NCBI RefSeq assembly: GCF_013167955.1
Contig: NZ_BLWF01000003.1
Coordinates: 186,001-250,000 of the forward strand
Direction of reading: 5' to 3'
Length of the DNA: 64,000 nt
Origin: Thermanaeromonas sp. C210
Lineage (GTDB): Bacteria > Bacillota > DSM-521 > Neomoorellales > Neomoorellaceae
Below are positions 13,157 to 36,960 of this stretch, piece after piece (the stretch's first letter is position 1; the number at the start of each line of letters is the position of its first letter). A program made the translations under genes and the position numbers. The notes under the pieces are model-generated. The model was given only the letters and a program-made list of their open reading frames with translations. It was not told the DNA's origin and did not search any database.

Positions 13157-13183
13157 GGCCGCTTGGCTCTAGCGGCCTTTTTC
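13157..13183 (+). terminator. Terminator after the sigma-54 activator gene
   Basis: GGCCGCT (13157-13163) pairs with AGCGGCC (13171-13177), followed by TTTTTC. It separates the regulator gene from the cooC promoter. Confidence 0.75.
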
Positions 13184-13186
13184 TTT

Positions 13187-13201
13187 TGGCACGCTTTTTG
13201 C
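13187..13201 (+). promoter_or_regulatory. Sigma-54 (-24/-12) promoter driving cooC and probably the CO cluster
   Basis: TGGCAC, five bases, TTGC (13187-13201) fits the sigma-54 consensus with the required GG-GC spacing. It is about 50 bp before the cooC start and immediately downstream of a gene for a sigma-54 activator. I could not identify the activator's upstream binding sites by eye. Confidence 0.85.
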
Positions 13202-13251
13202 TAATGAAGATAAACGATAACTAAGAGAAGTTGAACAGAGGAGGCATGCCA

Positions 13252-16818: not shown

Positions 16819-18840
16819 ATGATCGTTCAGCAGCTATTTCTGCTCTCCATTCTCCTATATATCGCCGGAGCAGTTGCCTCCCTGGCGCTGAATAGAGCCG
16901 GTAAAATGGCCAACTATGCTTCAGGAATAAGCGCCTTTGCGGCAGCAATCGCCGGGATGGCTTCGGCCATCCCGGTCTTCGCTCGTGGAACAGGCTTCAC
17001 CATGGAAGCGGTGGGGGTCATACCTTTTGCGCGCTTGATTTTCCAGGCCGATATCTTTTCCGCCTTTATGGTGCTGGTCATTTCGCTGCTGGCGGCCGCT
17101 ACAGCTATTTACTCCCTTTCTTACCAGGAAGAGTATATCGGGAGGGGTGCCGGAGTACTGGGCTTTTTGAATAACCTTTTCCTTGCCTCCATGGTCCTGG
17201 TAGTTACCAGCGGCAACGCCTTCTATTTTCTTATTTTTTGGGAGCTAATGACCCTGGCTTCTTATTTTTTGGTTAGTTTTGAACAAGAAAACCAAGAGGC
17301 TGTCCAGGCGGGTTTTCTCTATTTCCTGGTGGCCCACGCGGGGACAGCCATGATTATGCTTTCATTTTTTATATTCTTTCTTTACACGGGTAGCTTTGAT
17401 TTCGCCTCCTTCCGTAGCGCGAACCTTTCGCCGGTGACCAAGAATTTGGCCTTTCTACTGGCCTTCTTCGGCTTCGGGGCCAAGGCCGGTATTATTCCCC
17501 TCCACATCTGGTTACCACGGGCTCACCCTGCGGCTCCTTCCAACGTTTCCGCCCTCCTGTCGGGTGTGATGATTAAAACCGCTATCTACGGCATCCTCAG
17601 GGTTGGTGTGGATTTCCTGGGTTCTTCCGTCTGGTGGTGGGGGCTTACGGTCCTGGCCTTCGGGGCAATTTCGGCTGTTCTAGGTGTCCTTTACGCTATA
17701 AGTGAAAATGATCTCAAGCGGCTGTTGGCTTATTCCAGTATCGAGAACGTGGGAATCATCCTGATGGGTGCCGGTGTGGGCATGATGGGTGTTGCCAGTG
17801 GGCAGCCCGTTCTAGGAGTGCTCGGCCTACTGGCGGGGCTCTATCACCTCATAAACCATGCCGTTTTCAAGGGCCTTCTGTTCCTCGGCGCAGGTTCAGT
17901 AATCTATCGCCTCCACACGAAAAACATGGAGGAGATGGGCGGGTTAGCCAGGCAAATGCCGTGGACGGGATTCACTTTTCTGGCCGGTGCTTTAGGCATC
18001 TCAGCTATCCCTCCTCTCAACGGCTTTGTCAGTGAATGGTTTATCTACCAATCACTGTTTATGGCGGGCACCGGCGGCATCCTGGCGGTCAAAGTGCTGT
18101 CACCCCTTTTTGCGGTCATGCTGGCCCTGACGGGGGCGCTAGCGGCGATGTGCTTTGTAAAAGCCTATGGGGTTACCTTTGCCGGTACTTCGCGCAGCGT
18201 TCGCGCCCAAGAGGCCAGGGAAGTGCCGGTGCCGATGCTTGCCGGGATGGCCATTCTGGCGGCTGGCTGTATTATCCTCGGGCTGGGCGCACCGGTCGTT
18301 GCTCCCTATATTGCGAATGTGAGCTCGGCGTTGCTGGGCGCCTCTCCAGTACGGGTAAGTGACGGCCTGCTGGTATTTCCGGCCAGCGGCTCGCAGGCCA
18401 TACTTTCCCCACCTCTCCTGGCCCTTCTCCTCGTGGGGCTGGTAACCCTACCCCTGTTAATTGTTGCGCTTCAAGGCGGGATGCAGGCCGGGCGGCGTAT
18501 GGACTCTGAGCCGTGGGCATGCGGGTATAAGTATTCGCCCCGGATGGTGTACGCCTCTTCTGCCTTTGCCCAGCCGTTGCGCGTGCTTTTCCGCTCTGCC
18601 TATTGGCTTAGGACTGCCATGGAGGGGCCGGGCTACGCCATTGCGTCGTATGGCAAGGGAGCAATGGCCTACGTGGCCCGCATGGAGTCCATGTGGGAAG
18701 ATTACATCTACGGTCCCCTGGCCCGTGGTACGGTCCATCTCGGCAAACGGGTACAGGCCCTCCAGATGGGCAATGTCCGGCTGTACTGCGTTTATATCAT
18801 TGTAACCCTTGTAGCTTTGCTGATAGCCACGGTCAGATAG
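16819..18840 (+). CDS. hyfB: Energy-converting hydrogenase antiporter-like subunit (HyfB/HycC type)
   Basis: Polytopic membrane protein (673 aa) of the NuoL/M/N-Mrp antiporter superfamily, expected to move protons or sodium ions when the hydrogenase turns over. The conserved core is visible: WELMTLASYFLVSFEQ, FGFGAKAGIIPLHIWLPRAH and LLAYSSIENVGIILMG. A long C-terminal extension with an amphipathic region, as in HyfB, follows. ATG start with GGGAGG upstream. First gene of the hydrogenase membrane block. Confidence 0.9.
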   Translation: MIVQQLFLLSILLYIAGAVASLALNRAGKMANYASGISAFAAAIAGMASAIPVFARGTGFTMEAVGVIPFARLIFQADIFSAFMVLVISLLAAATAIYSLSYQEEYIGRGAGVLGFLNNLFLASMVLVVTSGNAFYFLIFWELMTLASYFLVSFEQENQEAVQAGFLYFLVAHAGTAMIMLSFFIFFLYTGSFDFASFRSANLSPVTKNLAFLLAFFGFGAKAGIIPLHIWLPRAHPAAPSNVSALLSGVMIKTAIYGILRVGVDFLGSSVWWWGLTVLAFGAISAVLGVLYAISENDLKRLLAYSSIENVGIILMGAGVGMMGVASGQPVLGVLGLLAGLYHLINHAVFKGLLFLGAGSVIYRLHTKNMEEMGGLARQMPWTGFTFLAGALGISAIPPLNGFVSEWFIYQSLFMAGTGGILAVKVLSPLFAVMLALTGALAAMCFVKAYGVTFAGTSRSVRAQEAREVPVPMLAGMAILAAGCIILGLGAPVVAPYIANVSSALLGASPVRVSDGLLVFPASGSQAILSPPLLALLLVGLVTLPLLIVALQGGMQAGRRMDSEPWACGYKYSPRMVYASSAFAQPLRVLFRSAYWLRTAMEGPGYAIASYGKGAMAYVARMESMWEDYIYGPLARGTVHLGKRVQALQMGNVRLYCVYIIVTLVALLIATVR

Positions 18841-18852
18841 GAGGAGAAAAAG

Positions 18853-19794
18853 ATGGCCGGTAATAAGTTACTCCTCATCGGCCTGGTGCAGGCTTTGTTA
18901 GTCCTGGTAGTAGCGCCTTTTTTTACGGGCTTTTCCCGCACTTTAAGGGCGAAGCTACATTCCAGGAAAGGCCCCGGCATTTTACAGAACTACCGGGACA
19001 TCTTTAAACTCATAAAGAGGCAAGAGGTGGTACCTGCCCAGGCTAGCTGGGTCTTCCGGTTTACCCCTTATATAGTGATGGCCACTACCCTGCTCATGGC
19101 TATGATAATCCCGATTTTAATCCTGCAGTCACCCCTGGGGATGGCTGCTGATCTCATAGCTGTCGTCTACCTGTTCGCTGTGTTCCGTTTCTTCTTTGCC
19201 CTTGCCGGTCTGGATTCGGGGAGCGGGTTCGCCGGGATAGGGGCCAGCCGGGAGATGGCCCTGGCCGTTCTAGTGGAGCCTACTATTATCCTGGTGCTGT
19301 TCGTGGTGGCCCTTCTCGCCGGGTCGACCGATCTAGGAACCATCAGCCAGAAGGTAGCGGCCGGTGAGATATCCTATTATAGCCCGGCGGTCTGGTTGGG
19401 CATGGCCGCCTTTGCTATCGCCACCTTTGTTGAAACCGGTAAGCTCCCCTTTGATCTAGCGGAAGCCGAACAGGAGATTCAGGAGGGACCCCTTACGGAA
19501 TATTCGGGGCGCTCCCTGGCCATCCTCAAGTGGAGCTTGTATATGAAACAAGTTGTGGCCATCGCCTTATTCTTGGCCGTCTTCTTCCCCTTTGGGAGCG
19601 CGGCGGTGGTTAGCGCTTCCTCCCTTCTGGTATCCGTGGCTACTTTCTTGCTGAAGGTGGCCGGCTTTTACGTGGTCGCGGCGCTACTGGAAAACGGTAT
19701 GGCCAGATTGCTCCTTTTTAAGACCCCCGCAGTAACCTGGGTGGCCTTCGGAATAGCCTTGCTGTCCTTCGTTTTCTATCTGGCCAATGTTTAA
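18853..19794 (+). CDS. hyfC: NuoH-like hydrogenase membrane subunit (HyfC/HycD)
   Basis: Membrane anchor (313 aa) homologous to complex I subunit NuoH and to HycD. It connects the peripheral hydrogenase arm to the pumping subunits. Conserved segments include KGPGILQNYRDIFKLIKRQ, SGSGFAGIGASREMALA and ETGKLPFDLAEAEQEIQEG, the last typical of the NuoH quinone-site equivalent. ATG start 12 bp after the previous stop, with AGGAGG upstream. Confidence 0.92.
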   Translation: MAGNKLLLIGLVQALLVLVVAPFFTGFSRTLRAKLHSRKGPGILQNYRDIFKLIKRQEVVPAQASWVFRFTPYIVMATTLLMAMIIPILILQSPLGMAADLIAVVYLFAVFRFFFALAGLDSGSGFAGIGASREMALAVLVEPTIILVLFVVALLAGSTDLGTISQKVAAGEISYYSPAVWLGMAAFAIATFVETGKLPFDLAEAEQEIQEGPLTEYSGRSLAILKWSLYMKQVVAIALFLAVFFPFGSAAVVSASSLLVSVATFLLKVAGFYVVAALLENGMARLLLFKTPAVTWVAFGIALLSFVFYLANV

Positions 19795-19817
19795 TAGATA
19801 TGGGAGGGGTAAGAATA

Positions 19818-20465
19818 GTGTCCGGCACTAGTATAGTCAACGCCCTGGCTGTGCTGCTCATCCTGACCTCCATGCTGGTGGTAGAAACCCGGAAGCTCCG
19901 GACGGCGGCGTACATGTACAGCCTCCAGTCCCTGGTCCTGGTGGCGATTTTTCTATCCCTGGCCGTATTTATGGAAGCAGAACCGCTGTACATCTGGTCC
20001 CTTACTGCCCTCGTCACTAAGACCTTCCTGGTGCCCTATCTCATCATAAGGACCCTCAAAAAGGTAGGTATCCAGGAGGAAGGGCGGGCACCGGAGACAA
20101 GTTCGTCTGTTTTTCTAGCTGTGTGCCTGGTGGCTTTATCCTTCGCGGTAGTAGAACCTTTTCATATGCAAGCCTTACTGAAGTTGAAGGTTGCACTCGC
20201 TGTTTCTATAGCTCATTTTCTACTGGGCTTGCTCTGTATACTGGCTAGAAAAAATGCGCTCAAGCAGATATTGGGCTATTGCCTCATGGAGAACGGGTCG
20301 CATTTGACCCTGGCCATCATGGCCTACAATGCCCCTGAAACCGTGGAAATCGGTATCCTGACTGACGCTATTTTTGCCGTCCTGATCATGACAATTATTG
20401 CCAGGCGCCTCTTCCAAGATTTCGGCACCCTGGACACCGATAAGCTCACACTACTAAAGGGTTAG
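19818..20465 (+). CDS. hyfE: HyfE-like hydrogenase membrane subunit
   Basis: Small membrane subunit (215 aa) with about seven hydrophobic segments, resembling HyfE and, at its C-terminal part, NuoK (GYCLMENGSHLTLAIMAYN). GTG 19818 is preferred because GGGAGGGG lies 8 bp upstream; ATG 19800 is in frame but has no ribosome-binding site. It is followed without a gap by the next antiporter-like gene. Confidence 0.85.
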   Translation: MSGTSIVNALAVLLILTSMLVVETRKLRTAAYMYSLQSLVLVAIFLSLAVFMEAEPLYIWSLTALVTKTFLVPYLIIRTLKKVGIQEEGRAPETSSSVFLAVCLVALSFAVVEPFHMQALLKLKVALAVSIAHFLLGLLCILARKNALKQILGYCLMENGSHLTLAIMAYNAPETVEIGILTDAIFAVLIMTIIARRLFQDFGTLDTDKLTLLKG

Positions 20466-21956
20466 GTGATAGGAGTGGGGGAGAATATTTTATTCTACTT
20501 GCCTGCGGTACCGCTGGGGACGGCCCTTTTGGCCTTCGGGATAAGGTCCCGGCGTGTAGTAGAGGTCGTGCACTTTGCCGGGATCGGTATAGTGGCTTTT
20601 CTCTCCCTGCTGCTGGTGCAGTACGTACTTAACGGACAAAGGTTATTCGCCCTTGGAGAAATGCTCTACGCCGATAGCCTGACGGCGGTCCTTATTCTTA
20701 TTATCGGGGTACTGGGGTTTCTGAACGGCTTTTACTCTATAGGATATATGCGATACGATCTAGAACGTGGTGAAGTAGATGAGAGGGGCGTCTGCTCTTA
20801 TTACGGTTTTTACCATATACTTTTGTTCACCATGGTTCTCTCTGCCCTATCCAATAATATTGCCCTTATGTGGGTGGCAGTGGAGGCAACCACGTTAGGT
20901 TCAGCCTTCCTGGTCGGGTTCTATAAATATAAGACTTCGGCGGAAGCTGCCTGGAAGTACGTCCTGATCTGCAGCGTTGGCCTGGCCTTTGCCCTGTACG
21001 GGACCATCCTGACCTACTCCAACGCCTTTGCCGTGGTACAGGATGCTCACAGGGCGATGCTATGGACCGAGTTAGTAAGGATGGCCCGGGGTCTCGACCC
21101 GCAGGTGATGAAACTGGCCTTTGTGTTCATTTTGATCGGTTTCGGGACCAAGGTGGGCCTGGTTCCTATGCACACATGGCTACCTGATACTTATAGCGAA
21201 TCTCCAAGCCCGGTTAGTGCCTTGCTGTCGGGTGTACTGATGAAGTGTGCGCTATTTGCGATAGTAAAATATTATACCATTGCCTTGCAGGCCGTCGGCC
21301 AGGAGTTCACGCAGACCCTGCTCCTCATTTTTGGCCTTTTGTCTGTGGGTGTCTCGGCTTTCTTCATCCTGGTGCAGAACGATATCCAAAGGAAGCTGGC
21401 TTACAGTAGTGTTGAGCATGTAGGCATCATCGCCACCGGCCTGGGCGCAGGAGGGCCGCTGGGAATACTTGCCGCGCTCTTTCACGCCGTAAACCATAGT
21501 ATTACTAAATCCCTTCTGTTTTGCACGGTGGGCAATGTGACTCTCAAGTATGGTACCAGGGACTCCCAGAAGATTAGAGGTATGTTCAAGGTAGCCCCCG
21601 CTACTGCCTTTATTTTTGCAACCGGGCTTCTGGCTGTGGTCGGTTCACCGCCTTTTAGCGTCTTCATAAGCGAGTTTATGACCCTGACGGCGGGCCTGCA
21701 AGCTGGATATTTCTGGCCGATGATACTCTTTCTTATCTTGCTGGTCATCGTCTTTGTCGCCTTTTTTATCCTGATAAGTGAAACGGTCCTCGGTTCCCCT
21801 CCGGAAGATCTACCCCGGGGTGATCTCAGCTGGCTGACCTTGTTGCCTCTGGGGATCCTGTTTCTGCTCATGGCCGGGCTGGGGATATATCTACCTGCTC
21901 CGTTAAATGGATTGCTGCAGAGCGCAGTGAGCGTTGTCCTGGGAGGGGCGATATAG
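20466..21956 (+). CDS. hyfF: Antiporter-like hydrogenase subunit (HyfF type)
   Basis: NuoL/M/N-family membrane protein (496 aa). Conserved motifs are WVAVEATTLGSAFLVGFYK, FGTKVGLVPMHTWLPDTYSE and KLAYSSVEHVGIIATGLGAG. GTG 20466, with a possible second start at GTG 20475. It directly abuts hyfE and the next antiporter-like gene. Confidence 0.88.
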   Translation: MIGVGENILFYLPAVPLGTALLAFGIRSRRVVEVVHFAGIGIVAFLSLLLVQYVLNGQRLFALGEMLYADSLTAVLILIIGVLGFLNGFYSIGYMRYDLERGEVDERGVCSYYGFYHILLFTMVLSALSNNIALMWVAVEATTLGSAFLVGFYKYKTSAEAAWKYVLICSVGLAFALYGTILTYSNAFAVVQDAHRAMLWTELVRMARGLDPQVMKLAFVFILIGFGTKVGLVPMHTWLPDTYSESPSPVSALLSGVLMKCALFAIVKYYTIALQAVGQEFTQTLLLIFGLLSVGVSAFFILVQNDIQRKLAYSSVEHVGIIATGLGAGGPLGILAALFHAVNHSITKSLLFCTVGNVTLKYGTRDSQKIRGMFKVAPATAFIFATGLLAVVGSPPFSVFISEFMTLTAGLQAGYFWPMILFLILLVIVFVAFFILISETVLGSPPEDLPRGDLSWLTLLPLGILFLLMAGLGIYLPAPLNGLLQSAVSVVLGGAI

Positions 21957-23396
21957 ATGGTTTGGTATGCGCTGGGAAGCATTTTGCTGCCAGTATGGGG
22001 AAGTTCCCTTGTGCCATTTTTACCGGAGCGACACGTGAAAAAGGTGGCTCAGTTTTTCTCCTTCCTGGCTTTTGTCAGCGGTTTGCTTCTGCTGCTCGCT
22101 TTTGCTGCCGACCGCACAAGTTTTACCCGGGAACTGGTGACTGTAGGCGGTATCACCTATTATGGTATAACTATAGATACCCTAAGCGTTTTAGTTAACT
22201 TCTTGGTAGTTTTCATCGGCTGGCTCATCTGCACCTACTCGGCCGGGTATATGAGCCCTGACAACAGAGAGCATCCAATCAAAGAAGGGATTCCCAGGTT
22301 TTATGCCCTCATGCTGCTTTTTATCGGCTCTATGGCAGGCGTGGTCTTTTCTTCCACGCTGCTGGGGCTTCTGTTCTTCTTTGAAATGACCGGTCTCTGC
22401 TCGTGGGGTTTGATCGGATTTTATGGCGATCAAAAATCCCGCAGGTCCGCACTGTGGGCGATTGCCCTCACTCACACCGCCGCGCTGGGACTCTATGTGG
22501 CTACGGCCTATCTCTATGTAAACACCGGCAGCTTCTCGGTGACCGCCCTTAACAAATTAACGGACGCCGGGAAAACCCTGGCCTTTATCGGGATCTTAAT
22601 CGCCTGCTGGGGCAAGTCCGCCCAGCTTCCTTTTCATCCTTGGCTGCCCCGGGCGATGGTGGCGCCGACCCCGGTAAGCGCCTATTTGCATGCCGCTTCC
22701 ATGGTTAAGGTTGGCGTATACATCTTTGCCCGAACCGTCCTGGCAGCGGGGTCGGTTCCCCAGGTGATCGGCGAGATCGGGGCGATCATGGCCACAGTCA
22801 CCATGATATACGGTTTTATCATGTATTTCCCGCAGGATGATATGAAGCGACTGCTAGCCTACTCTACGATCACCCAACTCTCTTACATTTTCCTGGCCCT
22901 CTCCCTTTATATCTACGGTTCCAAGATGGCCTTAAATGGTGCGGTGGCCCACATCTTTAACCACGCTTTTGCTAAGGGCCTGTTCTTCTTGGTTGCCGGT
23001 GCGCTGTCCTATACAACCGCTACACGCCAGCTCTCGATGCTCAAGGGGATTCTAAATAAAGTTCCGGTAGTTGGATTGGGTTATATTGCGGCTGCCATGG
23101 CCATTACAGGCGTTCCTCCTTTCAATGGTTTTTTCAGCAAATTTATGATCATAACTGGCGGTTTCGAAATTGGTAAGCACCATCCGCTGATCCTTATCCT
23201 AATTATCGTTACGCTTATAGAGTCTGTAGGAAGTTTCATCTGGTTCCTTAAGTGGATGGGAGCCAACGTCTTGGGCACACCTTCGGAGGTAGTGGCCCGT
23301 GCTGCTGAACCGCCCGGGGCCATCAAATTTGTTCTCGTCCTTCTTATGATCATGACGCTGATTTCCCAGTACCTCGCTTTGATCTTGTTAAGCTAG
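21957..23396 (+). CDS. Third antiporter-like hydrogenase subunit (HyfD/NuoL-like)
   Basis: NuoL/MrpA/D-type membrane protein (479 aa). Core segments are FFFEMTGLCSWGLIGFYGD, WGKSAQLPFHPWLPRAMVAP and DMKRLLAYSTITQLSYIFLAL. It begins immediately after the hyfF stop. With HyfB and HyfF it makes three antiporter-like subunits, the number found in Hyf-type rather than Hyc-type complexes. Exact Hyf letter is inferred from position, so I leave the symbol empty. Confidence 0.85.
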   Translation: MVWYALGSILLPVWGSSLVPFLPERHVKKVAQFFSFLAFVSGLLLLLAFAADRTSFTRELVTVGGITYYGITIDTLSVLVNFLVVFIGWLICTYSAGYMSPDNREHPIKEGIPRFYALMLLFIGSMAGVVFSSTLLGLLFFFEMTGLCSWGLIGFYGDQKSRRSALWAIALTHTAALGLYVATAYLYVNTGSFSVTALNKLTDAGKTLAFIGILIACWGKSAQLPFHPWLPRAMVAPTPVSAYLHAASMVKVGVYIFARTVLAAGSVPQVIGEIGAIMATVTMIYGFIMYFPQDDMKRLLAYSTITQLSYIFLALSLYIYGSKMALNGAVAHIFNHAFAKGLFFLVAGALSYTTATRQLSMLKGILNKVPVVGLGYIAAAMAITGVPPFNGFFSKFMIITGGFEIGKHHPLILILIIVTLIESVGSFIWFLKWMGANVLGTPSEVVARAAEPPGAIKFVLVLLMIMTLISQYLALILLS

Positions 23397-23420
23397 AAAC
23401 AAAGGGAGGTCGACATAAGT

Positions 23421-25151
23421 ATGCCAAAGGAAACGAAATCCGAACAGGACAGGAAAAAATATGTGAAGGCCCTGCGCTCTAAGTTTGGAGCGGTTATCCT
23501 GGAAGAAAGCTGGCAAACGCCGGATCAAGTAACCCTGACGGTGGAACTTAACTCCCTCCCAGAAGTGGTGGAAGAAGTGTATTATGGGCAGGGTGGGTGG
23601 CTCTCTAATGTGGTCGGAAATGATGAGCGCAGCTTGAACGGACACTTTGCGGTATACTACGTTTTATCTATCGAGGAAGAAAGGGATCCCCATAAAAACT
23701 TCTGGCTGACGGTGAAGGCCCTGGTTCCTTCCCATAAACCCCAATTCCCCTCGGTAACCCCGCGGGTACCGGCGGCTGTATGGTACGAACGGGAGGTGCG
23801 GGATATGCTGGGGCTGGAGCCGGTGGGCCTCCCGGATGCGCGGAGACTGGTATTGCCCGATGACTGGCCGGAAAACCTGTATCCCCTGCGGAAGGATATG
23901 GATTACCGGTTACGCCCTGACCCGGTAGCAGAAGAAGAAAACTATGAGTTTATCGAAGTAGAAGGAGAGGGTATTGTCGAGGTACCCCTAGGTCCACTGC
24001 ATATTACTTCCGACGAGCCCGGGCACTTCCGCCTCTTTGTGGATGGCGAGTATATAGTGGACGCTGACTACCGCCTTTTCTACGTGCACCGGGGCCTGGA
24101 GAAACTGGCTGAAAACCGCATGGACTACGACCAGGTTACTTTCTTGGCCGAGCGGATCTGTGGCATCTGCGGTTACGCCCATAGTGTGGCGTATGCTGCG
24201 GCGGTGGAAACGGCCAACGGGATTGAGGTACCGCCGCGGGCCCAATATACCCGCACCATCCTGCTCGAGGTGGAGAGGGTGCACAGCCACCTCTTAAATC
24301 TAGGGCTGGCGGCCCACCTGGTGGGTTTCGATTCGGGGTTCATGCATTTCTTCCGGGTACGGGAGAAGGCTATGCAAATGGCCGAAATTCTCACCGGAGG
24401 CCGGAAAACCTACGGCATTAACCTTATTGGAGGAGTGCGGCGGGATATTTTAAAAGAGGAGAAAGACCGGGTCTTGCGATTAATTTCCCAGATCCGGTCT
24501 GAACTGGATGAACTCATCGATATGCTGCTAAATACTCCCAACTTTATCTCGCGAACCCAAGGAGTAGGCCGCCTGGACCCCAAAGTAGCCCGGGACTTTA
24601 GCCCGGTGGGCCCTAATATGCGAGGTTCCGGATATGTCCGGGATACGCGGGCGGACCACCCTTATGGGGCCTACGACCGGGTATCCTGGGACGTCATTTC
24701 CAAAGATGGGTGCGACGTTCTTTCCAGGGAACTGGTACGGGCAGAAGAGCTATATGAGTCCTTAAAAATTATTGAGTGGTGTTTGATAGAAATGCCTCCC
24801 GGCCCGGTCCTCGTGGAGGGGTTTACCTATAAACCGGGAACCTACGCCCTGGGATATGTGGAAGCTCCCAGGGGAGAAAATGTCCACTGGGTAATGACAG
24901 GAAACGACCAGAAGGTGTATCGGTGGAGGCCGCGAGCTTCTACCTATAATAACTGGCCAGCCCTGCGGTATATGTTTCGCGGCAATACGGTGTCTGACGC
25001 GCCGCTAATTGTGGCCAGCATCGACCCCTGCTACTCCTGTGCGGAAAGGGTTACGGTGGTCGATGTGCGTAAAAAGAAGGCGAAGACTATTGAATACAAG
25101 GAACTGGAAAGATACTGCCGGGAAAGAAAATACTCGCCGCTAAAAGTTTAG
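23421..25151 (+). CDS. hyfG: [NiFe]-hydrogenase large subunit fused to NuoC-like domain (HyfG/HycE)
   Basis: Catalytic subunit (576 aa) that reduces protons to H2. Residues about 1-175 are NuoC-like and the rest NuoD-like. Nickel-binding motif L1 is RICGICGYAH and L2 is DPCYSCAERV near the C-terminus. About 35 residues follow L2, the peptide expected to be removed by HycI after nickel insertion. ATG start with GGGAGG upstream. The fused NuoC domain distinguishes it from Ech or CooH hydrogenases and places it with the formate-hydrogenlyase group 4 enzymes. Confidence 0.94.
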   Translation: MPKETKSEQDRKKYVKALRSKFGAVILEESWQTPDQVTLTVELNSLPEVVEEVYYGQGGWLSNVVGNDERSLNGHFAVYYVLSIEEERDPHKNFWLTVKALVPSHKPQFPSVTPRVPAAVWYEREVRDMLGLEPVGLPDARRLVLPDDWPENLYPLRKDMDYRLRPDPVAEEENYEFIEVEGEGIVEVPLGPLHITSDEPGHFRLFVDGEYIVDADYRLFYVHRGLEKLAENRMDYDQVTFLAERICGICGYAHSVAYAAAVETANGIEVPPRAQYTRTILLEVERVHSHLLNLGLAAHLVGFDSGFMHFFRVREKAMQMAEILTGGRKTYGINLIGGVRRDILKEEKDRVLRLISQIRSELDELIDMLLNTPNFISRTQGVGRLDPKVARDFSPVGPNMRGSGYVRDTRADHPYGAYDRVSWDVISKDGCDVLSRELVRAEELYESLKIIEWCLIEMPPGPVLVEGFTYKPGTYALGYVEAPRGENVHWVMTGNDQKVYRWRPRASTYNNWPALRYMFRGNTVSDAPLIVASIDPCYSCAERVTVVDVRKKKAKTIEYKELERYCRERKYSPLKV

Positions 25152-25190
25152 CCCGGCTATAAGCGAAACAAAAGGAAGGGGGATCTCTGG

Positions 25191-25730
25191 GTGCTAAAAT
25201 TGCTTAAAAAAACGCTGCAGGTCGGGCAAGCTACTGTTGAGTATCCCTTTAAACCAGTAGAGGTGGCACCTGGCTTTCGCGGAAAACCGGTTTATAACTT
25301 TAGCCGGTGTATAGCGTGCGGGGCCTGTGCTACTGCTTGCCCGCCCAATGCCATTACCATGGACTGCGATTTAGAGCGGGGGATTAAGTCCTGGAATATA
25401 AACTACGGCCGCTGCATTTTCTGCGGCCGCTGTGAGGAAGTATGCCCTACGGGCGCCATCGCCCTTTCGGCAGAATTTGAATTGGCCGCCGCCAGAAAGG
25501 AGGATCTTTACTGCCGGGCTGAGGTCCAGCTCTGTAAGTGCATCTCCTGTGGGGAATACTTTGGACCCTCTCGCGAGCTGGAATACGTTCTGGCCATCCT
25601 GAAACAGGCAAGATTGCTGGAGAGCGGCCATGAAGGCTGGGAGCAACTCCTTAAAGTATGCCCGAAGTGCCGGCGTCGGAAGATCGCGGGGAGTGGAGCT
25701 AAAGCCCTTGGGGCGAGGGCAAGGTTCTAG
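25191..25730 (+). CDS. hyfH: Ferredoxin-like hydrogenase subunit (HyfH/HycF, NuoI-like)
   Basis: Electron-transfer subunit (179 aa) with two [4Fe-4S] motifs (CIACGACATACPPNAI and CIFCGRCEEVCPTGAI), linking the ferredoxin donor to the small subunit. The C-terminal part has extra CxxC pairs (CKCISCG, CPKCRRRK), probably a zinc or rubredoxin-like site, as in several HycF/HyfH proteins. GTG start after AAGGAAGGGGG. Confidence 0.9.
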   Translation: MLKLLKKTLQVGQATVEYPFKPVEVAPGFRGKPVYNFSRCIACGACATACPPNAITMDCDLERGIKSWNINYGRCIFCGRCEEVCPTGAIALSAEFELAAARKEDLYCRAEVQLCKCISCGEYFGPSRELEYVLAILKQARLLESGHEGWEQLLKVCPKCRRRKIAGSGAKALGARARF

Positions 25731-25747
25731 GAGGGAGCAAGTAAAAT

Positions 25748-26491
25748 ATGGACCAGGAAGTAAAACTGGCAGAGCTAAAGGCCAAGCTTAAAAACGTTAT
25801 AAAACGCTCCGTCTATGTGTACCGGGTAGACTGTGGTGGGTGCAACGGGTGTGAGATTGAAATTTTCGCCGCTATCTCACCTGTTTATGACCCGGAAAGG
25901 TTCGGGATCAAAGTGGTAGCCTCCCCACGGCATGCCGATGTTCTTCTCTTCACCGGACCCATGACCAGGGCTATGCGGCTTCCGGCTATACGGGCGTATA
26001 AAGCGGCACCCGACCCCAAAATCGTGGTAGCTTACGGCGCGTGTGGCTGTAGCGGTGGTATCTTTCACGACTGTTACTGTGTGTGGGGAGGGGCTGATAG
26101 CCTTTTCCCGGTAGATGTATATATTCCCGGCTGTCCTCCCACTCCGGCAGCGACCTTGTACGGCCTGGCTATGGCCCTGGATTTGCTCCAGCAAAAGATT
26201 AAAGGAGAGCAGTTGGTAGAAACGGAGGTCACCCGGGTTACTCCGAAATATGAAGGGGTTTGCCCCGACCTGGCTAAAGACATCGAGCGGGAGGCCCGCC
26301 GTTTGAGCGGTTACCTGCATGGCCGGCGCATAGCCGCGCAATATCTCGAGTTCGTGAGGGAAAAAGACCCGCTGGCGGTAGACCGGAAAATTAAAGAGCT
26401 GGTAAAGCAAGAAAAAGATCCGCGACTGGCCGAAATTTTTTTGAGCTTGCACAAGATTTATATGGAGAGGGTAGGCCATAATGCCGGGTAA
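25748..26491 (+). CDS. hyfI: [NiFe]-hydrogenase small subunit (HyfI/HycG, NuoB-like)
   Basis: NuoB-like subunit (247 aa) carrying the proximal [4Fe-4S] cluster. Ligand motifs are CGGCNGCEIEIFAAI, a Cys in AYGACGCSGGIF and PGCPPTP. A basic/acidic C-terminal extension of about 90 residues follows the core. It overlaps the next gene by 11 bp. Confidence 0.92.
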   Translation: MDQEVKLAELKAKLKNVIKRSVYVYRVDCGGCNGCEIEIFAAISPVYDPERFGIKVVASPRHADVLLFTGPMTRAMRLPAIRAYKAAPDPKIVVAYGACGCSGGIFHDCYCVWGGADSLFPVDVYIPGCPPTPAATLYGLAMALDLLQQKIKGEQLVETEVTRVTPKYEGVCPDLAKDIEREARRLSGYLHGRRIAAQYLEFVREKDPLAVDRKIKELVKQEKDPRLAEIFLSLHKIYMERVGHNAG

Positions 26492-26921
26492 GGTAAAATT
26501 CTTTAAGCTGTGCAAGAGGTTTGTGGATGAAAAAGACGCCCCGCCCGAGGTTAAGCAGCTAGAGTATTATGCCCTGGCCATCGGTCACCATATAGGAGTG
26601 GTCGATTGTTTGTCGCCCGTTATGGTTATGGAAGAGGAAGACTATTTTAAATGGATCAGTAAACTGCCCCAGGGGAAAGCCAGGAGCAAGCTGGAAGGCC
26701 TGGCCAAGTGGGGAGAACTAGAGATAAATAGAGACCATGTTTCCCCATTAGTAGCGGCACTGGCCCAAGCTTCTACCAGCTTCCTTCCGGAGGAGAAGAA
26801 ATGGGCCGACTGCCTGCTACAGCTTCTCCAATCCATAAAAAAAGAACCAGCTATATATCTGGTGGTGAGGCTAAGTGAAGGGGCTAGTGATTACAGTGGG
26901 CAACGAGCTGATGGGCGATGA
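26481..26921 (+). CDS. hycH: Formate hydrogenlyase maturation protein HycH-like
   Basis: A 146-aa soluble protein resembling HycH, which helps mature the formate-hydrogenlyase hydrogenase. It shares the LEYYALAIGHHIGVVDCL region and a C-terminal helical part. It overlaps hyfI at its 5' end by 11 bp and the protease gene at its 3' end by 47 bp. Molecular role within the family is poorly known. Confidence 0.75.
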   Translation: MPGKVKFFKLCKRFVDEKDAPPEVKQLEYYALAIGHHIGVVDCLSPVMVMEEEDYFKWISKLPQGKARSKLEGLAKWGELEINRDHVSPLVAALAQASTSFLPEEKKWADCLLQLLQSIKKEPAIYLVVRLSEGASDYSGQRADGR

Positions 26922-27369
26922 CGGAGCCGGGCCGCTTTTGGCCCGGCTTTTAGAACAAAAGCGTATACCAGGGTGGCAGGTTACTGACGGCGGGTCGGCG
27001 CCCGAGAATTACCTGCACCAGGTACGGGAGTTAAAACCGCAGGTGGTAGTACTGGTTGATGCCTGTGAGATGAACCTGCCGCCCGGGAGCATACGCCTCC
27101 TTTCTGAAAGTGACATTGCCTGCGAGTTTATTTTGTCCACGCATAGGTTACCTTTGTCATTCTTCATCTCAGCTTTGAAGGAACTGGTGTCGGAAGTCTA
27201 TTTTATTGGTATCCAGCCTGCAGTAGTTGCCTTTGGTTGGCCGGTGTCTCCTGAAGTAAGGCGAGCAGTAGAGATCGTGTATCAAAAGTTACAAGCCGGA
27301 AAGCTCGATTTTCCCTACCTTGGTGGACAACGCCCTGTAGAGGCAAAGCACAAGGCCGCCAGGGCGTAG
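26875..27369 (+). CDS. hycI: Hydrogenase maturation endopeptidase HycI
   Basis: HycI/HybD-family protease (164 aa) that removes the C-terminal peptide of the large subunit after nickel insertion. Nickel-sensing acidic residues appear in VGNELMGDDGAG and VLVDACEM, with a His in STHRLPLS. GTG start within hycH. Its substrate is very probably the large subunit at 23421-25151. Confidence 0.9.
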   Translation: MKGLVITVGNELMGDDGAGPLLARLLEQKRIPGWQVTDGGSAPENYLHQVRELKPQVVVLVDACEMNLPPGSIRLLSESDIACEFILSTHRLPLSFFISALKELVSEVYFIGIQPAVVAFGWPVSPEVRRAVEIVYQKLQAGKLDFPYLGGQRPVEAKHKAARA

Positions 27370-27413: not shown

Positions 27414-27950
27414 ATGAAAGGTATTATCTTTTCTGTGCTCCAGGAGTACGCCGGGAACCGGCACGGCGACGAGGGAAGGGAAGCCTTTAGGAGGGCGACC
27501 GGGCTGATAACGCCGCTCGCCACTTCAGACTATCCCGATGAGAAAGTGGCGGCGGCCGTGGGGGCGCTGGCCGAGCTTTCCGGCAAGAAGCCGGAGGAGG
27601 TGCTGGCCGATTTCGGCCGCTACTTCGTGGCGGAATCACCCTTAGTGCAGAAGACCTATGCGGCGCATTTTAGGAATGCCAAGGATGCCAAAGATTTCCT
27701 CATGAAGATGGACTCCGTCCACGTCCAGACCACCAAAACCCTGCCAGGAGCCACACCCCCGCGGTTCGATTACGAGGACCGGAACAGCGAGGTGGTGGTC
27801 GTCTACCGTAGCGAGAGGAGGCTCTGCCCGCTGCTAAAGGGTCTGATCGAGGGCATAGGGCTGCGATATAACGGTAGGCCGCTGTCCTGGCGCGAAGAGG
27901 CCTGCATGTTGCGCGGGGCCAAGGCCTGCCGCGTGGCCGTGAGGTTCTAG
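27414..27950 (+). CDS. Stand-alone H-NOX haem gas-sensor protein
   Basis: A 178-aa H-NOX (haem-nitric oxide/oxygen binding) domain with no fused output module. Proximal haem ligand is H103 in DSVHVQTTK, followed by GATPPR. The propionate-binding YxSxR motif is Y131-S133-R135. Aligned to the Thermoanaerobacter H-NOX with identical numbering, the distal Tyr140 that stabilises O2 is Leu140 here, which favours NO or CO over O2. ATG with AAGGAGG upstream, 44 bp after hycI and 50 bp before hypA, inside the hydrogenase operon. A CO-sensing role is inferred. Partner unknown: no histidine kinase or cyclase is adjacent. Confidence 0.88.
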   Translation: MKGIIFSVLQEYAGNRHGDEGREAFRRATGLITPLATSDYPDEKVAAAVGALAELSGKKPEEVLADFGRYFVAESPLVQKTYAAHFRNAKDAKDFLMKMDSVHVQTTKTLPGATPPRFDYEDRNSEVVVVYRSERRLCPLLKGLIEGIGLRYNGRPLSWREEACMLRGAKACRVAVRF

Positions 27951-28001
27951 ACGGAGAAAACTTGATTTTGCGTACCTCGGGTGATTAAGGAGAGGGATAG
28001 G

Positions 28002-28343
28002 ATGCATGAACTGTCCCTTACAACTGAGTTATTAAAGCTATTGGAACACGATGCCCAACAGAAAGGTATAAAGCGCATACGGAAAGTTAAGCTGGTGATA
28101 GGGGCCATGACCTCGGTTTTACCGTCTGCCCTGGAGTTTTCTTTTTACGCGCTTAAAGAAGGACCGTTGTTTGAGGGAGCCCAATTGGAGATAGAGGAAA
28201 GGCCTGGGCGGGGACATTGCCAAGATTGCCTGGCGGAAGTAGTTCTGGATAATTGGTGTATTATGTGCCCTTCCTGCGGGTCGAGGAGGGTTTCTATAGA
28301 CCAAGGAAGGGAGCTTTATATTGATTTTTATGAGGGCGAATGA
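28002..28343 (+). CDS. hypA: Hydrogenase nickel-insertion protein HypA
   Basis: Nickel metallochaperone (113 aa) delivering Ni to the hydrogenase large subunit together with HypB. The N-terminal MHELSL motif binds nickel and the zinc site is CQDC...CPSC. The family start MHE fixes ATG 28002 (GGAGAGGG upstream), although an in-frame GTG exists at 27981. Confidence 0.94.
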   Translation: MHELSLTTELLKLLEHDAQQKGIKRIRKVKLVIGAMTSVLPSALEFSFYALKEGPLFEGAQLEIEERPGRGHCQDCLAEVVLDNWCIMCPSCGSRRVSIDQGRELYIDFYEGE

Positions 28344-28394: not shown

Positions 28395-29066
28395 ATGTTA
28401 GTGAGGGTAATAATGGCTCAAAAAATTCTCCAGGCCAATCAAGATATAGCCGGGCAAAACCGCAAGCGTCTATCCCCAATACTAACCGTCAATCTGATAG
28501 GTTCTCCTGGTGCGGGTAAAACCGCACTCTTAGAAAGGACCATAGCCTCATTAAAAAGGGAATTTAGCGTCGGGGTGATTGAAGGTGATATCTACACCAC
28601 CCTCGATGCCGAGCGTATTGCCGGGCAGGGCGTACAAGTTGTCCAGATCAATACTGAAGGGGCGTGTCACCTGGATGCCAGTATGGTCTACAGAGCGTTG
28701 CAAGAGATTGACCTGTCAGCCCTGGACCTTATATTTATCGAAAATGTAGGCAACCTGGTATGTCCGGCCGAATTTGACTTGGGTGAGGATTACAAGGTGG
28801 CGCTGTTGAGCGTCACTGAAGGCAGCGATAAGCCGGCCAAGTATCCCTTGGTATTTCGTGAAGCCCAGGCAGTAGTAGTTACAAAGGCAGATCTCTTACC
28901 GCACACTAACTTTGATTTGCAGGCTGTCGAAGAAGAGATTAAGGAAGCCAATCCTGCTGTGAAGATTTTTGTAACCTCAGCCCAAACCGGTGAGGGTCTG
29001 GAGGCCTGGTGTTTATGGCTGAAAGATGCTGTGCAGAAGAAAAAAAGCTTGTCCGCTACCGGATAA
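28395..29066 (+). CDS. hypB: Hydrogenase nickel-insertion GTPase HypB
   Basis: SIMIBI GTPase (223 aa) working with HypA. Walker A is IGSPGAGKTALLE, switch/metal region contains GACHLDASMV, and a guanine-specificity TKADLL is present. It lacks a histidine-rich N-terminus, so it should not store nickel. ATG 28395, with GTG 28401 and ATG 28413 also possible. Its 3' end overlaps hypF. Confidence 0.93.
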   Translation: MLVRVIMAQKILQANQDIAGQNRKRLSPILTVNLIGSPGAGKTALLERTIASLKREFSVGVIEGDIYTTLDAERIAGQGVQVVQINTEGACHLDASMVYRALQEIDLSALDLIFIENVGNLVCPAEFDLGEDYKVALLSVTEGSDKPAKYPLVFREAQAVVVTKADLLPHTNFDLQAVEEEIKEANPAVKIFVTSAQTGEGLEAWCLWLKDAVQKKKSLSATG

Positions 29067-31318
29067 TCGTTAAAGGGATTGTTCAGGGGGTAGGGTTTCG
29101 CCCCTTTGTTTATCAAGCGGCCCGCCTGCATGGTCTTAAAGGCGCTGTCTCAAATACCGCCGGGGGAGTAACCATAGAGGCCGAAGGGCAGCAGGAGGCG
29201 GTACGCGCTTTCCTGGCCTATTTAAAGGAAAATCAGCCTCCTTTGTCGAGGTTAAGTGCCTTGGAATGGGAGGTATTGGAGCCATGCGGGTATAGTTCCT
29301 TTGCTATTCTGCCGAGTAGAGAAGGGGCAAGGAAAGAAGCGCTGATTCCTCCGGATGTAGCCCTCTGTTCTGATTGTGCCCGGGAAGTATTAGATCCCCA
29401 AGATAGGCATTATGGCTATCCTTTTACCAACTGTACCAATTGTGGACCGCGATTTACCATTGTACGGGGTGTCCCTTATGACCGGGCGAATACTTCTATG
29501 GCCTCATTTCCCATGTGTCCGGACTGTGCCCAGGAATACCACGACCCGGGTAACAGGAGATTCCATGCCCAGCCGGCAGCCTGTCCTTCCTGCGGACCCC
29601 AAGTGGAATTGGTAGACAGGTACGGTCGCAAGATAAATGGCCACTGGTTGGAACTTTGTTGGAAATTGTTGCAAGAAGGCAAAATTTTAGCTGTCAAAGG
29701 GCTGGGAGGCTTTCACTTGGTTTGCGATGCAAAGAGTAGGGTAGCACTAAACACCCTCCGCCAACGCAAAGGCCGTGAAGCCAAACCCCTGGCAGTAATG
29801 TGCTGTCTGGAGACGGCCAAGAAATATTGCTTTGTTGGTCCGGAGGAAGAAAAACTGCTGACCTCTCCTCAAGCCCCCATTGTTATTCTTACCAAACGTC
29901 CGAGCTGTAGCTTACCAGAAGAATTGGCTCCGCGGATGAAAACCTTGGGTATAATGTTACCCTATACACCACTGCATTTGATGCTTATAAACGGCCCCTT
30001 GGAGATTTTAGTGATGACCAGCGGCAACTGTAACGGTTTACCCCTGGCCAAAGACAACGGGAGGGCCCTGGAGGAGCTTAAGGGCCTTGCCGACTATTTT
30101 CTCTGGCACAATCGCGAGATTGTCAACCGCTGCGATGATTCCGTAGCGGCGGTGATTAACGGCGTGGTACAAATCTGGCGTCGCTCGCGGGGGTATGTCC
30201 CCTCACCGATTATGGTTCCCGTCAGTTCCAGCCCTGTTGTGTTGGGTATGGGTGGGGATATGAAGAATACTTTTTGCCTTTTAAAAGGCAACCTGGCCTT
30301 TGTTAGCCAGCACATAGGTGAATTGAGTAGTAAGGAAACCGAGGAACACTTTTTTTTAAGCTTAAAGAACTTAAAAAGCCTTCTTGGTTCCGAGCCAGAA
30401 GTAATTGGTTATGACCTGCATCCTGGATACCGTTCCTCCCGTCTAGCAGCACAAATACCTGCAAAGGCGCGTTTTGCCGTTCAACATCACCATGCCCACA
30501 TGATTTCTTGCCTGGCTGATAACGGAGTGGAAGAGAAGGTTATAGGTGTAATCCTTGATGGAACAGGTTACGGAACGGACGGACACCTTTGGGGTTTTGA
30601 GATACTCACTGGAGACTACGCTGATTTTACCAGGGAGTATCACCTGGCGTATGTACCGTTACCTGGGGGCGAGCAGGCGATCCGTTACCCTTGGCGAACA
30701 GCAGTAGCTTATTTAATGAAGTACCTTTCTTCAAGAGGTGAATCCATTGTTGCACGCCTTTTTCAAGACAGAGGACAAGAACTCCAAGTTGTCAAACGCC
30801 TTATCTTAACAGGTTTTAATTCACCGCTAAGCTCGAGTTGCGGTCGTCTTTTTGACGCGGTATCAGCCCTTCTTGGCCTTTGTTATTATAATAGTTATGA
30901 GGGACAGGCTGCTATTGAACTAGGTGAGATAGTCCTGGAGCCAGAAAAAGGGAAAAAATTAGCACCCTATTCATTTTCTATTGAGGGAAAAGTTATCCAT
31001 CCCGGTGGTGTTATTGCTGGTGTGGTGGCCGATTTAGAGAATGGGGTGGCAAAGGAAATTATAGCCACCCGTTTTCATAATACAGTCCTGGCCATGGTAT
31101 GTGAGGCTGTTCGCGCGGTTGCTAAAAGAACAGGTATGAGGACTGTAGCTCTAAGCGGCGGAGTCTGGCAAAACAGGTACCTTTTTAGCCTTGCTAAGGA
31201 GATCTTGCCTAGCGAGGGTTATCATCTGTTGGTCCACCGGCACGTGCCGGCGAATGATGGAGGTCTATCCCTGGGTCAGGCAGTGATCGCCTGCCGGAGG
31301 TGGCAACAATGTGCTTAG
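29015..31318 (+). CDS. hypF: Carbamoyltransferase HypF
   Basis: HypF (about 767 aa) makes the CN ligands of the NiFe site from carbamoyl phosphate. Domains in order: acylphosphatase (about 10-100, IVQGVGFRPFVYQ), two zinc fingers (CSDCAREV...CTNCG and CPDCAQEY...CPSCG), YrdC-like domain (about 200-380) and a Kae1-like carbamoyltransferase with VQHHHAH. ATG 29015 has GGAGG 10 bp upstream; GTG 29009 is an alternative. It overlaps hypB by about 50 bp. The hyp genes look more AT-rich than the CODH and CRISPR genes. Confidence 0.94.
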   Translation: MAERCCAEEKKLVRYRIIVKGIVQGVGFRPFVYQAARLHGLKGAVSNTAGGVTIEAEGQQEAVRAFLAYLKENQPPLSRLSALEWEVLEPCGYSSFAILPSREGARKEALIPPDVALCSDCAREVLDPQDRHYGYPFTNCTNCGPRFTIVRGVPYDRANTSMASFPMCPDCAQEYHDPGNRRFHAQPAACPSCGPQVELVDRYGRKINGHWLELCWKLLQEGKILAVKGLGGFHLVCDAKSRVALNTLRQRKGREAKPLAVMCCLETAKKYCFVGPEEEKLLTSPQAPIVILTKRPSCSLPEELAPRMKTLGIMLPYTPLHLMLINGPLEILVMTSGNCNGLPLAKDNGRALEELKGLADYFLWHNREIVNRCDDSVAAVINGVVQIWRRSRGYVPSPIMVPVSSSPVVLGMGGDMKNTFCLLKGNLAFVSQHIGELSSKETEEHFFLSLKNLKSLLGSEPEVIGYDLHPGYRSSRLAAQIPAKARFAVQHHHAHMISCLADNGVEEKVIGVILDGTGYGTDGHLWGFEILTGDYADFTREYHLAYVPLPGGEQAIRYPWRTAVAYLMKYLSSRGESIVARLFQDRGQELQVVKRLILTGFNSPLSSSCGRLFDAVSALLGLCYYNSYEGQAAIELGEIVLEPEKGKKLAPYSFSIEGKVIHPGGVIAGVVADLENGVAKEIIATRFHNTVLAMVCEAVRAVAKRTGMRTVALSGGVWQNRYLFSLAKEILPSEGYHLLVHRHVPANDGGLSLGQAVIACRRWQQCA

Positions 31319-31542
31319 CTATTGTGGGGAAAGTAATTAAGTTAAATGAGACGCATAATACGGCGATAATTGATATTCACGGTGTCCGCAGGGAGATATC
31401 TGTAGCTTTACTGGGTCAGGTAAATGTGGGCGATTATGTTCTGGTGCATGCGGGATTTGCCATAGAAAAGATTGATTTAAAAGAAGCTGAAGAGACGGTG
31501 AAAATGTGGGAGGAACAATTAAATGATGCTAGCCGTGGATAG
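31309..31542 (+). CDS. hypC: Hydrogenase assembly chaperone HypC
   Basis: HypC/HybG (77 aa) binds HypD during assembly of the Fe(CN)2CO moiety. The essential N-terminal cysteine is in MCLAIVGKV, which sets the start at ATG 31309 (GGAGG 8 bp upstream). It overlaps hypF and hypD at its ends. Confidence 0.94.
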   Translation: MCLAIVGKVIKLNETHNTAIIDIHGVRREISVALLGQVNVGDYVLVHAGFAIEKIDLKEAEETVKMWEEQLNDASRG

Positions 31543-32653
31543 ATTCCGTGAGGGGGAGTTGAGCAGAAAACTCGCCCGTAAGGTCTTGGGGCTGGCAGAC
31601 CAGGTGGCTGAACGTCTTGGGCGCCCCGCAGTTTTTATGGAAGTATGCGGAACGCACACAGTATCTATCTCCAGGATGGGATTGCGTAGCCTGTTGGCGG
31701 GCCGTCTGGAACTGAGAAGTGGTCCGGGATGTCCTGTTTGTGTAACAGATTATGAGGAAATCGATATGATGCTAAATCTTGCACGCTTACCTGAGGTTAC
31801 GGTGGGGACCTTTGGGGATCTGATGCGCGTGCCCGGCAGCCAATCCTCCCTGGAGAGGGAACGCGCTGGCGGTGCCGATGTGCGGGTATTTTACTCGCCG
31901 CTGGATGCGGTAGCCTTTGCTGAGGCTAACCCGCAAAAAGAGGTGGTATTTTTAGGAATTGGTTTCGAAACAACCATCCCTGTAGTCGCTTTCAGCCTTG
32001 CCCAAGCCCGGACCAGGGGGGTTAAAAACTTTAGTATTTTCTCAGCCCATAAACTTATTCCCCCTGCTGTCCGGGCGGTTCTTAGTGACCCTGAACTAAA
32101 ACTTGACGGATTCATTTTACCAGGACATGTTGGTGCCGTTACTGGCAGGGGGGCTTTTGATTTTATCGCTCAAGAGTATGGCTTACCAGCGGTAATTAGT
32201 GGTTTTGAGCCCCTGGATATCATGATTGCCCTGCACGAGCTTTTGTCTCAACTGCTACGTGGCGAGGCACAGGTTGTGAACAAGTATACGAGGGTGGTAC
32301 GGGAAAAGGGCAACCCGTACGCCCGAGAGCGGATAGCGGAGTGTTTTGAGGTGGTCGATGTTTCCTGGCGGGGTCTGGGAGTTATTCCTAAAAGCGGGCT
32401 TTTTCTGCGGGAAACCTTTCGCGATTTTGATGCCCGATTTAAACTAAATATAGAACTGCTTCCGCCACGCCACTCGTTAGATTGTGCTTGTGGAGAAGTT
32501 TTGCGAGGGAAACTTTTACCTCCGGATTGCCGGTTCTTTGGCAAGGCCTGCACGCCGGTTCACCCTGTAGGCCCTTGCATGGTTTCCAGTGAAGGGGCTT
32601 GTGCGGCTTACTACCGATTTGAACGATCCTTGCCTATTGGGGGTGGCAACTAA
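31523..32653 (+). CDS. hypD: Hydrogenase formation protein HypD
   Basis: Fe-S scaffold protein (376 aa) on which the Fe(CN)2CO unit is built with HypC and HypE. Conserved motifs: FMEVCGTHT near the N-terminus, SGPGCPVCVT, and a C-terminal cysteine region (DCACGEVLRG). Start at ATG 31523 or 31526. Confidence 0.94.
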   Translation: MMLAVDRFREGELSRKLARKVLGLADQVAERLGRPAVFMEVCGTHTVSISRMGLRSLLAGRLELRSGPGCPVCVTDYEEIDMMLNLARLPEVTVGTFGDLMRVPGSQSSLERERAGGADVRVFYSPLDAVAFAEANPQKEVVFLGIGFETTIPVVAFSLAQARTRGVKNFSIFSAHKLIPPAVRAVLSDPELKLDGFILPGHVGAVTGRGAFDFIAQEYGLPAVISGFEPLDIMIALHELLSQLLRGEAQVVNKYTRVVREKGNPYARERIAECFEVVDVSWRGLGVIPKSGLFLRETFRDFDARFKLNIELLPPRHSLDCACGEVLRGKLLPPDCRFFGKACTPVHPVGPCMVSSEGACAAYYRFERSLPIGGGN

Positions 32654-32654
32654 G

Positions 32655-33671
32655 GTGGAAGGGGACGGCAAGGATATTATTTTACTGGCTCACGGTGACG
32701 GGGGTGCCCTCACCCACGAACTCATTAATACCCTTTTTCTTCGCTATTTCGGAGGCAGCATATTAAAAAACCTCAGCGATGCGGCAGTTTTTTCAGTAAG
32801 TGAAGGGAAATTGGCTGTTACTACTGATTCCTTTGTGGTTGACCCCCTTTTCTTCCCGGGGGGTGATGTGGGAAAACTGGCAGTTTATGGTACGGTCAAT
32901 GATCTGGCCGTTAGCGGTGCACAGCCCCAGTATCTTACGGCTTCTTTTATTTTAGAAGAAGGTTTGTCGCTCATTGATTTGGAACGTATTGTGCGCTCTA
33001 TGGCGGCGGCCTGTAATTTGGCTGGCGTGGAAATTATCGCTGGGGATACGAAGGTAGTTGAAAAGGGGCACCTGGATAAAATTTTTATTAATACTACCGG
33101 AGTAGGTTTTATCCCCCAAGGAATAGATTTGGGGTACCACCGGATTAAACCCGGTGATAAAGTTTTGATCAATGGCAGTCTTGGCCAACACGGTATAGCA
33201 GTACTTGGTAAGCGGTATGGTTTCGATTCTGCAGAGCAGGTCATGAGCGATTGTGCCCCGCTGAATGGTATAATTAACTTGCTTTTAAAGGAAGTTCGGG
33301 GAATTAAGATGATGCGGGATCTTACCCGGGGCGGCCTCGCAACAGCAGCTAAAGAAATTGCCTCAGCCTGCGGGTTAGATATTTGGCTGGATGAAAATTG
33401 TATCCCAATAGATGCCAGGGTAAAGGGGGTAGCCGAGATGTTGGGGCTGGATCCCCTTTATCTTGCAAACGAGGGGAAATTTATGAGTATTATCAGCCCG
33501 GAGGAAGCAGGAAAAGCTGTAGCGGTAATGCAAGGGCATGAACTGGGAAGAAATGCTTGTATTATAGGTGAGGTGAAGCCTGGTAATGGTAACGTCTATC
33601 TCTCTACATCCCTTGGAGGTGCTAAGCTTTTAGATCTTCTAGCTGGGAGTCCTTTACCACGGATCTGTTGA
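32655..33671 (+). CDS. hypE: Hydrogenase expression/formation protein HypE
   Basis: PurM-like ATPase (about 338 aa) that dehydrates the carbamoyl group on its C-terminal cysteine to thiocyanate. N-terminal LLAHGDGGALTHELI, central VSGAQPQYLTASFI and the required C-terminal PRIC are all present. I chose GTG 32655, just after the hypD stop with GGGGGTGG upstream; the frame is open from GTG 32589, so the start is uncertain. Confidence 0.92.
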   Translation: MEGDGKDIILLAHGDGGALTHELINTLFLRYFGGSILKNLSDAAVFSVSEGKLAVTTDSFVVDPLFFPGGDVGKLAVYGTVNDLAVSGAQPQYLTASFILEEGLSLIDLERIVRSMAAACNLAGVEIIAGDTKVVEKGHLDKIFINTTGVGFIPQGIDLGYHRIKPGDKVLINGSLGQHGIAVLGKRYGFDSAEQVMSDCAPLNGIINLLLKEVRGIKMMRDLTRGGLATAAKEIASACGLDIWLDENCIPIDARVKGVAEMLGLDPLYLANEGKFMSIISPEEAGKAVAVMQGHELGRNACIIGEVKPGNGNVYLSTSLGGAKLLDLLAGSPLPRIC

Positions 33672-36955: not shown

Positions 36956-36960
36956 AAAAC

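Follow-up and report, generated by a model that had tools for sequence, protein, structure and literature searches.

A stand-alone H-NOX protein without the distal tyrosine lies in a CO dehydrogenase/hydrogenase operon of Thermanaeromonas sp. C210 and its relatives

We found that an operon for anaerobic CO dehydrogenase (CODH) and a group-4 hydrogenase in Thermanaeromonas sp. C210, a thermophilic anaerobe related to Moorella, contains a gene for a stand-alone H-NOX protein, situated between hycI and hypA. The protein type is known; its placement here is real, conserved and unusual. As to its function, sequence comparisons lead us to propose, tentatively and with a little less than even confidence, that the protein would sense CO (or NO) by its haem in an accessory role, tuning an operon that is switched by a V4R activator. 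The operon lies in the 64,000 bp of DNA that we analysed (the window), with the gene order cooC-cooS-cooF-hyfB..I-hycH-hycI-H-NOX-hypA-B-F-C-D-E, all on the + strand and with the activator gene upstream:

13231..14004, + strand: cooC, CODH nickel-insertion ATPase
14274..16208, + strand: cooS, anaerobic CO dehydrogenase catalytic subunit (TIGR01702, 748 bits)
16205..16690, + strand: cooF, ferredoxin-like electron carrier
16819..26491, + strand: hyf-type group-4 hydrogenase subunits, 8 genes
26481..26921, + strand: hycH
26875..27369, + strand: hycI maturation protease, 164 aa
27414..27950, + strand: stand-alone H-NOX, 178 aa, with an ATG start and a GGAGG ribosome-binding site
27981..28343, + strand: hypA, probable start ATG at 28002
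28395..33671, + strand: hypB, hypF, hypC, hypD, hypE

A sequence-only reading of this DNA had called the open reading frame at 27414-27950 a stand-alone H-NOX gene between hycI and hypA, with no kinase, cyclase or MCP gene adjacent, and each of these points was confirmed. The empty junctions, the flanking scar, the sigma-54 promoter and the three C-terminal cysteines described below go beyond that reading. The product of the frame matches the Pfam HNOB model at 101.6 bits (5.6e-29; cut-off 25.5) and is the sole match in the 2.68-Mb genome. Its structure model, built from three homologous sequences (pLDDT 81.6), has the H-NOX fold: the best solved-structure matches are H-NOX crystal structures, the top one from Nostoc (4iae, TM 0.77, E 8e-11). 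The neighbouring genes include no kinase, cyclase or MCP, and no kinase or cyclic-di-GMP partner gene of the kind that accompanies zinc-type H-NOX was found at the locus. Because the gaps beside the gene measure only 44 and 30 bp, and a terminator scan found no + strand terminator-like site in either, the H-NOX gene is most likely co-transcribed with the operon. No Rfam matches were found in the 10-36 kb portion of the window. The dN/dS of the H-NOX gene, about 0.2, is not an outlier among the neighbouring genes, indicating purifying selection.

The residues reported from the sequence alone (H103, YxSxR at 131-135 and Leu140) are all where that reading had put them. Along with the proximal His103, the protein has Y131, S133 and R135, as well as Pro115, an apolar distal pocket formed by Leu9/Phe71/Leu140, and the C-terminal residues C138, C164, C172 and E161. 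His103, YxSxR, Pro115 and the ligand-site residues are invariant in five of five relatives. From family membership we infer that the protein would bind haem b via His103.

According to published descriptions, O2 binding requires the distal tyrosine, which marks the H-NOXs of strict anaerobes (PMC8738867; PMC7356049), and H-NOX proteins sense NO in facultative anaerobes but O2 in strict ones (PMC8738867). In our phylum sample, all 27 MCP-fused Firmicutes H-NOXs have Trp9/Asn74/Tyr140, while every stand-alone H-NOX lacks the tyrosine, the window type being Leu/Phe/Leu. Since absence of the tyrosine goes with the stand-alone state, Leu140 is no local oddity. The features of the O2-sensing class, the triad and the MCP fusion, are both absent from the window protein, and because the entire triad is missing (Leu9/Phe71/Leu140), exclusion of O2 is to be expected, as the earlier reading had claimed. 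Its wording that a tyrosine had been "replaced by leucine" is not supported, since it implies an O2-sensing ancestry and our tree groups the protein, tentatively, with zinc-type H-NOXs. Specifically, in a tree that contained no Shewanella or V. cholerae sequences, the window type joins proteins from Vibrio, Bradyrhizobium and Natrinema with support of 98/96, on long branches, apart from the MCP-fused and most other stand-alone Firmicutes H-NOXs. By eye, in the ORF translations, we recognised no CODH, hydrogenase or kinase neighbour of those other stand-alone proteins. A search of genome contigs for further homologues returned only Moorella stamsii and a WOR-3 relative at 35% identity; the latter falls in the other stand-alone clade of the tree.

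The three C-terminal cysteines correspond to the Shewanella H-NOX zinc ligands Cys139/164/172 (PMC7108781). They are kept in all five window-type H-NOXs, and zinc binding is predicted. The V4R domain of the operon activator has the same cysteine spacing (26 and 8), as do the V4R cysteines Cys151/177/185 of DmpR (PMC7264223). The H-NOX protein scores 26.7 bits on the Pfam V4R model, below the cut-off of 31, and BLAST of its C-terminus against the V4R region of the activator gave weak similarity (28% over 40 aa, with E 0.03 in one comparison). The common spacing is thus no more than suggestive.

The comparison covered 61 genomes, 22 of them of this class or order. Close H-NOX homologues, 88-94% identical, occur in 5 of the 22: the window genome, G007, G011, G016 (M. 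stamsii) and G018. Four of the five carriers have the gene between hycI and hypA. The fifth, G018, has two copies: a contig end truncates one of them right before hypA, and the other, which is complete, stands behind another hycI elsewhere on the contig. In the class, we found no copy of this gene outside hycI neighbourhoods. The proposed co-occurrence with cooS-hyf clusters was borne out in that the gene is tied to the CODH type, being present in 5 of 7 CODH-linked clusters versus none of the 3 formate-linked clusters (formate dehydrogenase-like versions of the operon, in G006, G023 and G048). Fisher's test over the 22 genomes gives a nominal p of 0.0008, on counts that are few and phylogenetically dependent. 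Published carriers of the CODH-ECH cluster include M. stamsii, M. glycerini and Thermanaeromonas (PMC6687684). The expectation that close relatives would have the gene in the same position held in part: the carriers share the hycI-linked site, but G008 and G009 have the same operon with cooS and no H-NOX gene at the junction. Because it is absent from these two otherwise similar clusters, H-NOX is dispensable for the pathway. As a separate observation, an extra ORF of ~175-185 aa, by eye possibly a PsiE-like membrane protein, follows hypA in G016, G011 and G018; it is missing in the window, G008 and G009.

The flanks of the gene bear on how it is gained and lost. A direct repeat of 54-56 bp, derived from the hycI end, flanks H-NOX in G016 and G011, where the alignment scores of 83 and 77 stand against at most 29 in shuffles; a second fragment matching hycH/hycI sequence lies downstream in both. 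The window and G007 have only a short repeat, whose scores (25 and 28) fall within the range of the shuffles (maxima 28 and 31), and we infer its presence there from position and homology. The window copies are:

27298..27322, + strand: direct repeat, upstream copy (hycI 3' end), eroded and by itself no better than chance
27956..27980, + strand: direct repeat, downstream copy just before hypA

The C-terminus of HycI is 14 residues longer than in several relatives (164 versus 150 aa), apparently through fusion with scar sequence. In G016, cooS-hyfG are nearly identical to those of G008 (dS 0.04-0.07), hycI and hypB diverge from G008 (dS 0.4-0.5), and H-NOX and hypA match G011 (dS 0.05 and 0.03); the contrast argues that the H-NOX-bearing segment was exchanged by recombination. 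G008 and G009 each have a single, empty hycI-hypA junction, either a loss or a site that was never occupied. Taken with the flanking repeats, these empty junctions suggest that the H-NOX gene comes and goes by recombination. We also noted that hycI and H-NOX are separated, in G016, G011 and G018, by ~330 bp of what seems to be decayed coding sequence, part of which resembles a helix-turn-helix by eye.

Regulation of the operon itself points to the activator gene and the elements that follow it:

11038..13107, + strand: V4R-PAS-sigma-54 activator (enhancer-binding protein), V4R zinc motif C-x25-C-x7-C
13108..13143, + strand: two tandem operator-like dyads TGTNAA-N6-TTNACA, degenerate here
13157..13186, + strand: hairpin and T run, by eye the activator gene's likely terminator
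13187..13202, + strand: perfect sigma-54 -24/-12 promoter TGGCACGCTTTTTGCT; the window has no other exact match

The annotated TTG start of the activator may be too early, homologues pointing to the ATG at 11248. Each of the seven CODH-linked clusters in the class has an exact match to the -24/-12 consensus, with one spacer base different in G011; in the two formate-linked regions checked, no close match was found. The dyads begin some 79 and 61 bp before the -24 element and occupy similar places in all 10 loci compared; they were recognised by inspection rather than by formal motif statistics, and are degenerate in several loci including the window. In the distant genomes G059, G249 and G390, a full-length homologue of the activator (about 37% over 620 aa) lies immediately ahead of cooF-cooS-cooC, with a sigma-54 site of 1-2 mismatches between activator and coo genes and no H-NOX gene at these cooS loci; in G292, an activator homologue adjoins hypD-hypE. 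Because the activator precedes cooS even where distant genomes lack H-NOX at the locus, it is a candidate for a more general CODH regulator, to which H-NOX would be an accessory. Within the window, it is probably the main regulator of the operon. A structure model of its sensor part was poor (pLDDT 45). We found neither a CooA-like nor an RcoM-like protein in the genome; on reading, the single Crp-family protein is unlike CooA and the single LytTR response regulator is unlike RcoM.

In the mechanism that we favour, H-NOX would be made once the sigma-54-driven operon is on, and would bind ferrous b-type haem via His103. Lacking a distal hydrogen-bond donor, it would ignore O2 and bind CO and NO, CO being the usual ligand in CO-grown cells and NO a competing one. 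Ligand binding would move the C-terminal half, where the predicted V4R-like zinc site lies, and from there a signal would pass to a partner that adjusts either expression of the operon or activity of the hydrogenase. One candidate for this partner is the V4R activator. That CO is the physiological ligand is a guess, as is output through the activator. The earlier suggestion of such an output keeps its footing insofar as the activator probably governs the same operon, but obligate coupling is unlikely, because the activators of G016 (with H-NOX) and G008 (without) are 99% identical and the cooS-linked homologues occur without H-NOX. The claim that the protein reports CO or NO and tunes the pathway is supported in part, by its identity and its tie to CODH clusters, although the pathway does not need it. 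To the boldest version, in which this would be the first H-NOX with CO as its physiological ligand, reporting CO (and NO) to the V4R activator via shared zinc-bearing V4R-like halves, we give low credence.

Other functions must be weighed against that of an accessory CO (or NO) sensor. NO poisons CODH and NiFe hydrogenase, and the protein could be an NO sensor of the zinc-type lineage that warns of this poison, e.g. during nitrate or nitrite reduction. Its grouping with the Vibrio, Bradyrhizobium and Natrinema proteins agrees with this, as does the finding that characterised H-NOXs of facultative anaerobes exclude O2 and sense NO (PMC8738867). We nevertheless consider it somewhat unlikely, given that the operon context is CO rather than nitrogen oxides, and that no hnoK-type kinase or GGDEF gene is adjacent, unlike the Vibrio and Bradyrhizobium copies. 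Redox sensing by zinc-bound cysteines, independent of haem, has been put forward for Vibrio cholerae H-NOX and would account for the match to the Shewanella zinc ligands, but all five relatives retain the haem ligand and YxSxR, which makes this very unlikely. Strict anaerobes, moreover, rarely meet the oxidants involved in H-NOX redox sensing.

It is quite unlikely that the gene is a passenger, recombined into hyc/hyp sequences and without a role in CO metabolism. The direct repeat scar, the decayed stretch upstream in three genomes, the empty junctions of G008 and G009 and the extra hycI-H-NOX copy in G018 are what such a history might leave behind; on the other hand, the gene is under purifying selection across genera with its ligand-site residues intact, and in the class it never strays from hycI. 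Its position among maturation genes might instead suggest a factor that works with HycH, HycI and HypA on the hydrogenase, an idea that is barely credible in view of its absence from two full CODH clusters and three formate-linked ones.

Among known systems, Shewanella oneidensis SO2144 and the Vibrio cholerae (Vc) H-NOX are alike in being stand-alone, with His103, no distal tyrosine and three cysteines at equivalent places. These act on the histidine kinase HnoK, whereas the window protein has no adjacent kinase; the fourth zinc position, His or Gln in the Shewanella/Vibrio type, is probably Glu161 here, and the CODH/hydrogenase setting is peculiar to the window protein. The Nostoc sp. protein (Alr2278) shares the fold and an apolar pocket without tyrosine, in which Met aligns with Leu140, but is only about 23-24% identical and has Trp in place of Phe71. 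Caldanaerobacter (Thermoanaerobacter) H-NOX shares the fold, the histidine, YxSxR and an origin in anaerobic Firmicutes; it differs in its Trp9/Asn74/Tyr140 triad, MCP fusion and separate clade. CooA and RcoM, the haem CO sensors of CODH operons, would serve the same CO-sensing purpose, but are unrelated proteins with their own DNA-binding domains. The operon activator resembles DmpR/MopR/PoxR in domain layout and V4R zinc cysteine spacing; those proteins sense phenols, while the activator is CODH-linked and only weakly similar to MopR (E 0.015).

In the open-licence literature we found no description of an H-NOX linked with CODH/hydrogenase, and a single paper that mentions H-NOX with Moorella, in passing. 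A stand-alone H-NOX of probable zinc type and without the tyrosine, set in a CO operon, fits neither the NO-sensor nor the O2-sensor class, and its presence there, in Moorella relatives that produce hydrogen, raises the possibility that CO is its natural ligand. If the boldest version were true, H-NOX and the V4R activator would make up a two-protein CO switch in carboxydotrophs that lack CooA. The V4R sigma-54 activator, tandem operators and -24/-12 promoter suggest how such CO oxidisers switch on CODH. The linkage of activator and CODH genes reaches from Moorella relatives into distant Firmicutes, and the activator is a candidate regulator of CODH in organisms without CooA.

Synthesis of haem b in the host is plausible. 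No ferrochelatase was found in the genome, in which a hemA-hemC-cobA/hemD-hemB-hemL operon includes two ahbC/ahbD-like radical-SAM genes (G000:C3:426000-440000; names by reading translations); the match to the AhbD model is 350 bits, below the cut-off of 500. The order of the operon, hemA-hemC-cobA/hemD-rSAM-hemB-rSAM-hemL, looks like a sirohaem-dependent haem b pathway. After the CODH/hydrogenase operon, at 35066-39679, the translations by eye include CARF-type and Cas10-like genes, which suggests a type III CRISPR locus.
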